The notes below the pieces were generated by a model. That model saw only the letters and a program-made list of their open reading frames with translations, was not told where the DNA came from and made no database searches. Both the position numbers and the translations under genes were made by a program. 64,000 nt of DNA from assembly GCF_020150815.1 (NCBI RefSeq), contig NZ_CP083723.1, positions 1,054,001 to 1,118,000 on the forward strand, written 5' to 3'. Position 1 is the first letter of the stretch, and each line of letters begins with the position of its first letter. Of the stretch, positions 28,599 to 33,381 are shown one piece after another. This DNA comes from Haloprofundus salilacus (GTDB taxonomy: Archaea > Halobacteriota > Halobacteria > Halobacteriales > Haloferacaceae).

Positions 28599-29585
28599 AT
28601 GACTGGGAAGTTCACGCCCGACGATCTCGCAGCCTACGTCTTCTCTCGGGCGGGCGCGCCCAACGACGACCTGCTCGTCGGCCCGGCGTTCGGCGAGGAC
28701 GCCGCCGCCGTGCGAGTCGGCGGCGAGACGCTCGTCGTCAGCACCGACCCCATCTCGCTGGCCGCCGAGCGGATCGGAACGCTCGGCGTCGCCATTGTTT
28801 CGAACGACGTGGCCGCCTGCGGCGGCGTCCCGGAGTGGCTCACCTGCACGATTCTGCTGCCGGACGACGACGCGGCGCTTCTCGACACTATCACCGCGCA
28901 ACTCGACGCCGAAGCGGACCGCCTCGGCATCACCATCGTCGGCGGGCACACCGAGTCCGTCTCGGCGCTCTCGCGCCCGCTCCTGTCGCTCACCTGCGCG
29001 GGCACCGCCGACCGGTACGTCTCGACGAGCGGCGCGCGACCCGGCGACCGAATTCTGCTCACGAAAGCCGCCGGCGTCGAGGGAACGGCCGTCCTCGCGA
29101 GCGACTTTGCCGAGGAGTTCGGCGCACCCGCGGACCTCGTCGCCGACGCGACTGCGTTCTTCGACGACTTGAGCGTCATCCCCGACGCGGCGGCACTCAC
29201 GCCGTTCGCGACGGCGATGCACGACCCGACCGAGGGCGGTGTCGTCGCCGGACTCACGGAGATGGCCGTCGCCGGCGACGCCGTGCTCTCGGTCGACCCG
29301 GACGACGTTCCGGTTCGCGCCGAGACGCGGCGACTCTGCGACGCCGCGGGAGTCGACCCGCTTCGAATTCTCGGATCGGGGGCGCTCGCGGCGACGGTCC
29401 CCGAGGACTGCGTTGACGAGGCGCTCGCTGCGCTCGACGATGCCGGCGTCGATGCGGCCGAAATCGGCATCGTCGAGCGCAGCGAGCGCCTCGCAGAGAC
29501 GGACGCGGAGGCGGCCGGTCTCCGTCTCGGCGACGAGTTCTTCGCGTCGCCACCGGAGGACGAGATGTACGCGCTCTGGGAGTAG
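28599..29585 (+). CDS. AIR-synthase-like (PurM/HypE superfamily) protein
   Basis: 328 residues. N-terminal PurM-like domain with VGPAFGEDAAAVRVGGETLV, the metal/ATP motif DPIS and GVAIVSNDVAACGGVPEWLT; C-terminal domain with GDRILLTKAAGVEGTAVLAS, AMHDPTEGGVVAGLTEMA and RILGSGALAATVP. It resembles the HypE branch, but it lacks the Cys-terminated tail that HypE uses to carry carbamoyl or cyanide groups (it ends EMYALWE). It is therefore probably an archaeal AIR-synthase-like enzyme with another substrate. ATG 28599, not the in-frame 28590, begins MTGKFTPDDL. Divergent from the aminotransferase. Confidence 0.85.
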   Translation: MTGKFTPDDLAAYVFSRAGAPNDDLLVGPAFGEDAAAVRVGGETLVVSTDPISLAAERIGTLGVAIVSNDVAACGGVPEWLTCTILLPDDDAALLDTITAQLDAEADRLGITIVGGHTESVSALSRPLLSLTCAGTADRYVSTSGARPGDRILLTKAAGVEGTAVLASDFAEEFGAPADLVADATAFFDDLSVIPDAAALTPFATAMHDPTEGGVVAGLTEMAVAGDAVLSVDPDDVPVRAETRRLCDAAGVDPLRILGSGALAATVPEDCVDEALAALDDAGVDAAEIGIVERSERLAETDAEAAGLRLGDEFFASPPEDEMYALWE

Positions 29586-30638: not shown

Positions 30639-32942
30639 ATGACCGAGTCGAGTCCGAAACCGACGCTCCTGGCGTCCACCGAGACGCTCTGCGACGCCTA
30701 CCGAGACGCCGCGGCGACGAGGCTCGGTGCTGGCGACCCCTCCATCGTCGACGCAGCGAAGACGTGGGTGGCGTTCGTCCGACACCACCACGGAAACGTC
30801 TTCGAGAGCGACGCCGCTCGCGTTGAGACCGCTGCCGCCGACGCCACTTATCTTGAACCCGCCGACACCGACGCATCTCACGCCGACGACTCTCTCGCTC
30901 CGACGGAGCGGGCCGTCTTTCTCGACGTCCTCGCCGCGGATTTCGCGGTCTCGCGCCTGAGACGGGCAGTCGAATCGGCGTTCGACGTCGATTGCTCGTC
31001 GCCCGATGCGCCGGACTGCGTCGACGTGGACGCCGACTTCGACCGGACGTTCGACGCGGTCCACCGGCGGATTCGCGGCGATTTCGGCGACGAGAACGCG
31101 GTACGACTCGCCCGGTTGGAATCGACGGACGCCGACGCGCTCATCTCGCTGGACGCCGCCGTCGTCGGCGAGCTGTACGAGCGGGTCGTCCCCCGCCGCG
31201 CTCGCCTCTCCCTCGGCGAGTATTACACGCCGCGCGGTCTCGCCGAACTCGCGCTTCCGGCCGACTGCGCCGACGAGACAGTGTTGGACCCGGCGTGCGG
31301 CGCCGGTATCTTCCTCGTCGCGGCCACCGACCGAAAGCGCGCGGCGCTCTCGGGTCTCGCGCCGCAGCGGGCGCTCGACCGAATCACCTCGACCGTCGTC
31401 GGCGTCGATCTCAACCCCGTCGCCGTCCGTTGCGCCCGACTCGCGTACCTCCTCGCGTTGGCGCCGCTACTGGCCGCCGCCGACTCGCCGACGGTCGAAC
31501 TCCCCGTCCATCTGGGCGACTCGCTCGGCCTCCAGGAGGAGTCGACGGCGACGCCCGATTCCGTCACGACACGACCACCGACGACCGACCTCCGCGCCGA
31601 CGTGCTCGTCGGTAACCCTCCGTGGCTGACGTGGGAACGCCTCGGCGAGCGCGCGCGTTCGCGGTGGTGCTCGCGCCACATCGACCGGCTGAACCTCCTC
31701 CCGCGACGGGGGGCCGAGCGGTTACTCGGCCACGCTAACGACGACCTGTCGGTCCCGTTCGTCTGGGTCTGTGTCGAGCGCTACCTCCGGCAGGGCGGCC
31801 GGGCGGCGTTCGTCCTCAAGCGCGACCTGCGAAGCGGTCCGGCGGGGCGGCTGCTCCGCGAACTCCGGGTCGGCGACCGACCGCTCTCGCTCCGCGGCGT
31901 CGAGGATTTCGGCGACCTCGCGCCGTTCGGCGACCAGGTCCGCGCGGCCGCGGCGCTGTACGAGTTCGTCGCCGACGCCGACACCGAGTTTCCGGTGGGT
32001 CTGCGGACGTGGCGCGCGCGCGTTGGCGCGCAATCTCCGGAGTTCGACAGCGGCGACGCGATGCGCCGAACGCTCGACGCCGAGACGACGGGACTCGTCC
32101 CCGTCGACCCTGACGACACCGCGGGGCCGTGGGTCCGCGTCGACGCCGAACGCACGGCGCTCGGTCCGTGCGCACACGACATCCGACACGGTCTCAAAGA
32201 CGACGCGAAGGACGTGTTCACCGTCGACGATGAGACGCTCTCGGCGCTGGAACCCGACCACGTCTACCCGTATCTCCGGTCGAAACACGTCGTGAAGTTC
32301 GGGCTGTTCGGCTACGACCGCCACCTCGTCCCGCAGCGGCGCACGAACGAGGAAAACGAGCCCGAACTCGCCCGAAACGCGCCGCGGACGTACGAGTATC
32401 TCGACGCCCACCGCGAGGCGCTCGACGCGCGGGCGTCGACGTGGTTCGACGGCGGGCCGTTCTACAACCTGTTCGGTCTCGGGACGTACACGTGGGCCGA
32501 CTACAAGGTAGTCTGGTGTCGCCTCGGCTTCAAACCCCACTTCGTGGTCGTCTCGACCGTCGACGACCCCGAACTGGGCGAGAAAACGGTCGTCCCCGGC
32601 GACCACTGTATGTTCGTCGCCATCGACGACCGACGGGAGGCGCACCTGCTCTGCGGGTTGCTCAACTCCGCGCCGTATCAGCGCTGTTTGCGCGAACTCG
32701 GCGGCGAGGGGAAGTCGAGCCTCTCGAAGAGCACCGTCTCGAAGCTCTACCTCCCCGAATGGCGAGACGACCCCCTGTTTCGGCGCATCGCCGACTGTTC
32801 CGAGCGCGCGCACGGCATCGTCCCCGACCACGTCGACGTGAGTAAACGCGCGTACAACCGGACGACGATACCCGAACTGGAGACCGTAACTGGCGAACTC
32901 GACCGCACCGTCGAGCGGTTGCTCGCCGAGCGCGATGAGTAA
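30639..32942 (+). CDS. Orphan N6-adenine DNA methyltransferase (type IIG/Eco57I-like)
   Basis: 767 residues. SAM motif I VLDPACGAGIFLVAA (about 212), preceded by LGEYYTPRGLAELA; catalytic motif IV VLVGNPPWLTW (about 325, NPPW); then RGGRAAFVLKRDL. The C-terminal half (about 520-700) with YPYLRSKHVVKFGLFGYDRH and GPFYNLFGLGTYTW, HCMFVAIDD, LLCGLLNSAPYQ looks like a TaqI-type target-recognition domain. No nuclease motif (PD-ExK) was noticed in the first 190 residues and no restriction partner is adjacent, so it is probably a solitary methyltransferase. Lengthy frames on the other strand are shadows. ATG 30639 has no competing start. Confidence 0.85.
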   Translation: MTESSPKPTLLASTETLCDAYRDAAATRLGAGDPSIVDAAKTWVAFVRHHHGNVFESDAARVETAAADATYLEPADTDASHADDSLAPTERAVFLDVLAADFAVSRLRRAVESAFDVDCSSPDAPDCVDVDADFDRTFDAVHRRIRGDFGDENAVRLARLESTDADALISLDAAVVGELYERVVPRRARLSLGEYYTPRGLAELALPADCADETVLDPACGAGIFLVAATDRKRAALSGLAPQRALDRITSTVVGVDLNPVAVRCARLAYLLALAPLLAAADSPTVELPVHLGDSLGLQEESTATPDSVTTRPPTTDLRADVLVGNPPWLTWERLGERARSRWCSRHIDRLNLLPRRGAERLLGHANDDLSVPFVWVCVERYLRQGGRAAFVLKRDLRSGPAGRLLRELRVGDRPLSLRGVEDFGDLAPFGDQVRAAAALYEFVADADTEFPVGLRTWRARVGAQSPEFDSGDAMRRTLDAETTGLVPVDPDDTAGPWVRVDAERTALGPCAHDIRHGLKDDAKDVFTVDDETLSALEPDHVYPYLRSKHVVKFGLFGYDRHLVPQRRTNEENEPELARNAPRTYEYLDAHREALDARASTWFDGGPFYNLFGLGTYTWADYKVVWCRLGFKPHFVVVSTVDDPELGEKTVVPGDHCMFVAIDDRREAHLLCGLLNSAPYQRCLRELGGEGKSSLSKSTVSKLYLPEWRDDPLFRRIADCSERAHGIVPDHVDVSKRAYNRTTIPELETVTGELDRTVERLLAERDE

Positions 32943-32976: not shown

Positions 32977-33050
32977 CCGCTCTTAGCTCAGCCTGGCAGA
33001 GCAGCCGACTGTAGATCGGCTTGTCCCCCGTTCAAATCGGGGAGAGCGGA
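32977..33050 (+). tRNA. tRNA-Tyr (GTA)
   Basis: 74 nt, no intron. Acceptor CCGCTCT/AGAGCGG with discriminator A; D arm AGCTCAGCCTGGCAGAGC; anticodon stem GCCGA/TCGGC with loop CTGTAGA (anticodon GTA); T arm CCCCGTTCAAATCGGGG. A TATA-like ttcttaag lies about 30 bp upstream. The 3' 22 nt plus 3 following bases recur at 33150-33174. Confidence 0.95.
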
Positions 33051-33053
33051 CTT
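33029..33053 (+). repeat. att-like direct repeat, copy at tRNA-Tyr 3' end
   Basis: 25-bp direct repeat made of the T-arm/acceptor 3' part of tRNA-Tyr plus ctt. Perfectly matched by 33150-33174. This is the usual place for integrase attachment sites. Confidence 0.85.
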
Positions 33054-33381
33054 TTTCTGCGAACAACGTGAGAGTGAAAAGTCTACTTCGACACGATTTG
33101 AGCAGGGAGTGGGAGGTGAGCGAGCCGAGCAAGCGAACGGGAACGACCGCGTTCAAATCGGGGAGAGCGGACTTCGGATTTCTCGTGTCGCTACCCCGCG
33201 AGCGGAGCGAACCGACTACTACGACTTCTCCTCTATAAACTGAACGTACAAAATCTATCTACAATGTTCAGAACTGGAAAATTGCCAAGAAAATGTTAAT
33301 ACACTTCCATATGATATTCTTCTCATTCTGGCTCTCCTTACAATTATATTGACTATCTGAGAATCGACACGTTGCAACGAT
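33051..33381. other. Gene-free stretch after tRNA-Tyr, AT-rich in its second half
   Basis: Contains the displaced 25-bp repeat. From about 33233 to 33381 base composition becomes strikingly AT-rich compared with the window. No ORF of interest was found; it probably holds the promoter of the Tat-exported protein at 33382. Confidence 0.7.
33150..33174 (+). repeat. att-like direct repeat, displaced copy
   Basis: Exact 25-bp copy of 33029-33053, 96 bp downstream. It cannot be a tRNA by itself; it looks like the attR-type remnant of an integration event. Confidence 0.85.

Follow-up and report, generated by a model that had tools for sequence, protein, structure and literature searches.

The window analysed here is a 64,000-nucleotide stretch (G000:C1:1054001-1118000) of the 3.73-Mb haloarchaeal genome G000. 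A tRNA-Tyr (GUA) gene was located on its forward strand at 32977-33051 (ARAGORN; Rfam RF00005, 58.5 bits), and two exact copies of the 25-mer CGTTCAAATCGGGGAGAGCGGACTT were present on the same strand: a proximal repeat at 33029-33053, spanning the T-loop to the 3' end of the tRNA plus 2-3 bases, and a distal repeat at 33150-33174, an exact copy of the tRNA-Tyr 3' half. The repeat starts lay 121 bp apart and 96 bp separated the two copies, and both the duplication and this spacing had been read correctly in the first-pass annotation. A chance repeat was rejected as an explanation, the probability of an exact 25-mer recurring inside 1 kb being about 2e-12. The gene directly upstream of tRNA-Tyr (30639-32942) encoded an N6 DNA methylase-like protein (PF02384), which was also found in Halogranum, Halorussus, Halogeometricum, and Halobellus. 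Further upstream, ARAGORN called a tRNA-Gln inside an open reading frame at 28638-28731; this call is probably false, because the Rfam tRNA search of the genome did not list that gene.

The sequence from 33054 to 33174 on the forward strand formed one 121-bp tRNA-anchored unit, delimited by its 121-bp period and by a layout alike to that behind other tRNAs. It was composed of four parts in the following order: (i) a T-rich start with hairpin 1 (TTTTTCTGCGAACAACGTGAGAGTGAAA) at 33053-33078 on the forward strand, identified from its fold and by comparison with other tRNA-Tyr loci sharing this hairpin type (L002, L065, and L076); (ii) an inverted partial copy of the tRNA 3' half (AAGTCT...CGATTTGAGC) at 33079-33103, on the reverse strand, with the pieces AAGTCT at 33079-33084 and GATTTGAGC at 33095-33103, supported by the sequence, the fold, and the own-tRNA specificity of such copies across units; (iii) the hairpin 2 region (AGGGAGTGGGAGGTGAGCG...GGGAACGACCGC) at 33104-33149 on the forward strand, supported by a pattern match (G000:C1:1087095-1087159) and by alignment with L004, the orthologous tRNA-Tyr locus of G001, which carried the same type of hairpin 2; and (iv) the distal repeat. 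In the predicted fold of the unit alone, the inverted copy paired with the distal copy. The Rfam search of the window returned the tRNA itself as the sole match and nothing over the unit, and a search over the units of nine loci gave no credible match. No second copy of the window unit was found elsewhere in G000, and the second tRNA-Tyr of this genome carried only a degenerate version. The inverted partial copy, the hairpins, and the occurrence of the same arrangement behind other tRNA genes had no place in the first-pass annotation.

The unit of the window is one ordinary member of a repeat family. Directly behind the tRNA, units displayed the order hairpin 1, inverted T-loop/T-stem copy, hairpin 2, and direct copy of the tRNA 3' half, the last spanning the T-loop to the discriminator base of the unit's own tRNA. 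Unit length ranged from about 85 to 200 bp with a median period of 123 bp (95 units), and 75 of the 95 had 0-1 mismatches to their own tRNA in this sample, which was enriched for arrays. The tRNA surveys of G000 and of G327, another haloarchaeon, were run on retrieved regions. At least one copy of the own 3' half was present within 450 nt downstream of 9 of the 46 tRNA genes in G000 (controls: upstream 1, inverted 0), namely Gly twice, Ser twice, Met, Asp, Pro, Glu, and Tyr, the layout being alike each time; such downstream copies were present at 17 of the 32 tRNA genes in G327 (controls 1 and 1). Elsewhere, units were found behind Arg, Lys, Val, Leu, Phe, Asn, Gln, and other tRNAs, each with its own tRNA's 3' half, and arrays reached four units among haloarchaea. 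Hairpin-2 types such as AGTCGCAG...ACCGTCT recurred at different tRNAs and in different genera; one hairpin-2 motif had only two occurrences in G000, both behind tRNA-Ser.

The distribution of the family was surveyed with a pattern for the inverted/direct T-loop pair, GATTTGANN{28,57}GTTCAAATC, the same pattern read backwards serving as the control. The pattern was present in 272 of 292 genomes of the haloarchaeal class, covering 74 of 77 genera, and its reversed form in 0. In a phylum-wide draw, it was present in 31 of 33 haloarchaeal genomes versus 11 of 164 others, the latter mostly with a single match; rare single matches aside, the unit family is restricted to haloarchaea within the phylum. 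In family f1, one to three extra copies of the tRNA 3' end lay at about 75-200 bp behind tRNA-Tyr in many genera, and a second copy within about 200 bp was counted by hand at about half of the family's tRNA-Tyr loci, as listed. All 20 pattern matches retrieved from eight genomes outside that family sat behind a tRNA (Ser, Met, Arg, Asp, Glu, Lys, Phe, Val, or Leu), often in arrays of two to four units.

The units match their own tRNA. Direct copies did so by the definition of the search, and the inverted copy therefore provided the independent test: beyond the universal T-loop, it matched its own tRNA over 2.04 nt on average versus 0.75 +- 0.13 after permutation, and over 2.18 versus 1.07 +- 0.15 when tRNA-Tyr was left out, with 0 of 2000 permutations reaching the observed value in either test. 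Some inverted copies matched over 12-13 nt (Arg, Val, and Ser). The copies also tracked the sequence of the host tRNA-Tyr, genera with GGGGAACCCGGAC carrying GGGGAACCCGGAC copies and genera with TTCAATTCGGGG carrying TTCAATTCGGGG copies.

The sequence comparison among five Haloprofundus genomes revealed presence/absence variation of units: (i) both tRNA-Tyr loci of G004 were empty, while G000, G001, G002, and G003 held differing forms; (ii) tRNA-Glu carried a unit in G000, G001, and G002 and none in G003 and G004; and (iii) tRNA-Ser carried 0 to 2 units. At tRNA-Glu and tRNA-Ser, the downstream flank of 0-unit alleles aligned from its first base with the flank after the last repeat of 1- or 2-unit alleles (70-80% identity over 50-89 nt), and it gave no such alignment with the sequence directly behind the tRNA of the latter alleles; whole units are therefore the evolving items, and they were gained or lost with clean junctions. 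L048 contained exact 83-bp tandem copies. At L285 (tRNA-Asp of G001), hairpin 2 had flipped while keeping its place between the two T-loop copies, inverted and direct, and no other unit examined showed such a flip clearly; this points to dynamics at the DNA level. Two further observations may be recorded here. The two tRNA-Tyr loci of G003, L006 and L008, had different outer flanks and about 230 bp of near-identical downstream unit sequence in common, with the similarity stopping near the distal repeat, as expected from gene conversion or unit transfer. At L100 (G000:C1:2475000-2476700), two identical tRNA-Asp genes were separated by about 700 bp, and a short open stretch in this interval looked by eye like a PD-(D/E)XK nuclease; relatives kept the two tRNA-Asp genes, about 500-800 bp apart.

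We favour a reading in which the units are non-coding DNA-level modules whose gain and loss proceed through recombination at the core of the T-loop, and we give this mechanism about an even chance; the joint proposition, that the window duplication marks the far end of a unit belonging to a haloarchaeal family of tRNA-anchored hairpin repeats and that such recombination moves these units, is put at evenly balanced as well. The core site of a tyrosine recombinase generally consists of an overlap flanked by inverted arms. The 7-nt T-loop with its flanking inverted T-stem arms has this form, and a unit arriving at the T-loop core would restore the tRNA with its own copy and displace the former 3' half to a downstream position. 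The direct repeats of 22-25 bp could then serve homologous or slippage recombination that expands, deletes, and shuffles units, and recombination between inverted copies could flip hairpin 2. Archaeal att sites have been reviewed (PMC8371274), and loss through recombination between short direct repeats has been documented in haloarchaea (PMC3119063). Counting for the joint proposition are the downstream copies in the two surveyed genomes, the position of all 20 retrieved matches behind a tRNA, the class-wide pattern, the close match of units and of inverted copies to their own tRNA, the clean gains and losses, the L285 inversion, the L048 tandems, the restriction of one hairpin-2 motif to two tRNA-Ser genes of G000, and the tyrosine integrase element at the tRNA-Tyr of G018 described below. 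Counting against it, no recombinase was linked to the units and no circular or extrachromosomal unit was found, including among the matches listed from viral scans; hairpin 2 almost always pointed the same way with respect to the tRNA, a bias that transcription into RNA would account for as well; and the sense strand folded slightly better than its complement (z -2.04 versus -1.56, p 6e-4). Moreover, simple site-specific recombination could not carry a unit from one tRNA into a different one without damage to the acceptor stem of the recipient, and a further step is needed for spread between tRNA types: for hairpin types shared across tRNAs of different sequence, gene conversion or template switching would be required to fit the flanks.

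An alternative that we regard as possible, though on the unlikely side, is a functional role for the unit as RNA. Transcribed together with the tRNA as its 3' trailer, the unit would switch its inverted copy between two partners, the tRNA's own 3' half and the distal copy, and would thereby affect tRNA folding or processing or release a small RNA. The constant position and orientation behind tRNAs, the complementarity specific to the own tRNA, and the folding bias of the sense strand are all in keeping with such a trailer, as is the minimum-energy fold predicted for the whole transcript of the window's tRNA-Tyr and unit. In that fold, the T-arm of the tRNA was the partner of the inverted copy, and the 5' strand of the acceptor stem was the partner of the distal repeat. 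The base facing the T of GTTC was A in 28 cases and G in 27, and no other base was seen there. Selection on a sense-strand RNA would, however, favour G-T over A-C among helix mismatches, and the counts were 10 versus 22, in a test that is weak owing to the non-independence of homologous modules. Also against a trailer RNA, most tRNAs of G000 had no unit, units were freely lost in close relatives, T-rich stretches that are possible terminators often lay 3' of the tRNA, and the Rfam searches gave no family for the units. Counts of GNA triloops in the units were uninformative.

Passive generation during replication, in which hairpins provoke template switching that yields the inverted and direct copies, and quasipalindrome correction keeps the match to the tRNA with no enzyme or function involved, is an unlikely account of the whole. 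It would produce the direct-inverted-direct layout and the match of both copies to the own tRNA, and it could accommodate the in-place inversion at L285, the exact tandem copies in L048, and the repeat-mediated deletion documented in haloarchaea (PMC3119063), but it leaves unexplained both the recurrence of the AGTCGCAG...ACCGTCT type of hairpin 2 at different tRNAs and genera and the restriction to haloarchaea.

A more elaborate form of the recombination mechanism, which we consider doubtful, is a tRNA-anchored integron-like system, in which a tyrosine recombinase would insert, excise, invert, and shuffle the short modules via folded or cruciform hairpins with a T-loop core; such a system might protect tRNA genes against incoming integrases or add variety to trailer RNAs. 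The attC sites of integrons have the core consensus GTTRRRY / RYYYAAC. Integron attC arrays are like the units in being arrays of imperfect hairpins anchored at one site, with the core in the outer arms and variable apical parts; the unit core, which is the tRNA T-loop and was read by eye as GTTCAAA, does not fit GTTRRRY. No gene cassettes were found between unit hairpins, the spacers being mostly shorter than 200 nt and made of hairpins.

The first-pass annotation had taken the 96 bp as what an integrated element left behind on its loss, or else the site as still in use; with the former generalised, each repeat would be the attR of a lost integrative virus or plasmid, and we consider this very improbable. 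The limits of the repeat, from the T-loop to the mature 3' end, do fit integrase att sites, and a search for tyrosine-integrase elements at the tRNA-Tyr 3' end found one: in G018, of the same family and another genus, two tRNA-Tyr 3' ends lay 13.9 kb apart (L080, G018:C2:1353600-1371000), with a tyrosine recombinase adjoining the distal copy (PF00589, 6.9e-8; PF02899, 1.7e-5). This element also carried a complete-looking type I restriction-modification operon (HsdM, HsdS, and HsdR), and the unit layout was not seen at its ends. Use of the tRNA-Tyr 3' end by integrative elements is thus borne out in this family, and the att interpretation is right for the G018 locus; it is not the common case. 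Against a lost element at each repeat, units of uniform size (85-200 bp; about 120 bp at the typical locus) with a shared inner layout occurred behind many unrelated tRNAs, in tandem and class-wide; the tRNA-Tyr loci listed comprised, by hand count, one large insertion versus about 44 short arrays; and an element that was excised precisely would leave behind a single copy instead of two. The comparison among relatives gave a mixed result for the annotation, which had named conservation in all relatives with no element ever found there as contrary to its reading: empty alleles occurred at both tRNA-Tyr loci of G004, and a filled site occurred in another genus only (G018), none being found within Haloprofundus. 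Its interpretation is, overall, partly supported.

Scans of viral contigs with the T-loop pair and with the hairpin-2 motif yielded, among the matches listed, mainly chance matches in unrelated phages, and the filtered ones lacked the unit layout. In the plasmid search, the two haloarchaeal matches that were opened both lay on megaplasmids, one being a unit 3' of a tRNA-Val and the other a unit 3' of a tRNA-Glu-like gene, and they were accordingly rejected as att sites of free plasmids. On a plasmid of Natrinema thermotolerans (CP031304; L416), a tRNA-Glu-like gene with an apparent insertion in the anticodon region, not called by ARAGORN, was followed by a perfect unit.

Decay of tandem tRNA gene copies of which only the 3' half survives is hardly credible. 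In its favour, L040 and L041 contained tandem intact tRNA-Tyr genes, with a single masked or ambiguous base in each, and in L025, L042, L065, and L076 what was left of an anticodon arm preceded a hairpin inserted into the T-arm. Against it, most units had no other tRNA remnant yet had the inverted copy and hairpins, and decay would not leave precisely this 3' portion intact behind so many different tRNAs. At the four loci with anticodon-arm remnants, the tRNA-Tyr remnant consisted of the anticodon arm and the 5' T-stem strand, with a GC-rich hairpin at the T-loop boundary and then an intact 3' half.

The nearest precedent appears to be the rtT repeat of the Escherichia coli tyrT operon. The rtT repeats are 178 bp long and carry the last 19 bp of tRNA-Tyr. 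Like the units, they are tandem repeats behind a tRNA gene, each with the tRNA 3' end; unlike them, they are bacterial and known only from tRNA-Tyr, whereas the units occur at many tRNA types across haloarchaea and contain an inverted copy and hairpins. Integrative elements of archaeal and bacterial tyrosine integrases at tRNA 3' ends, bounded by attL/attR (PMC8371274, PMC3119063), share with the units a direct repeat of the tRNA 3' half that leaves the tRNA intact; the units differ in having no integrase or cargo, a length of about 120 bp, an arrangement in arrays, an inverted copy of the own tRNA, and a presence behind between one fifth and one half of the tRNAs that were surveyed in two genomes. 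In the window, no integrase or element genes lay between the repeats, the 96 bp being too short for a gene. REP/BIME, MITE, and PATE elements (PATEs in Haloquadratum, PMC3119063) are likewise short non-coding palindromes with turnover, but the units were confined behind tRNAs as far as tested, their repeats changed with the host tRNA, and no transposase-type ends were seen. The dispersal through intergenic regions that marks those elements was not observed, the window unit being single in its genome and the hairpin-2 motif lying only behind the two tRNA-Ser genes. No earlier description of such a tRNA-anchored unit family was found in the open-access literature. Each of the known classes tested is set apart from the units by a defining trait: integrative remnants by element genes, which the units lack; integrons by gene cassettes, likewise absent, and by a different core; and REP/MITE elements by dispersal, which the units do not show.

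Archaeal tRNA 3' ends are a main entry point for viruses and plasmids. With the family present in >90% of the haloarchaeal genomes scanned, many short duplications of tRNA 3' ends would not be prophage scars. The units offer a natural setting in which the gain, loss, and inversion of modules beside tRNA genes can be put to the test, and they raise the question of whether they protect tRNA genes, regulate tRNA genes, or are selfish DNA.
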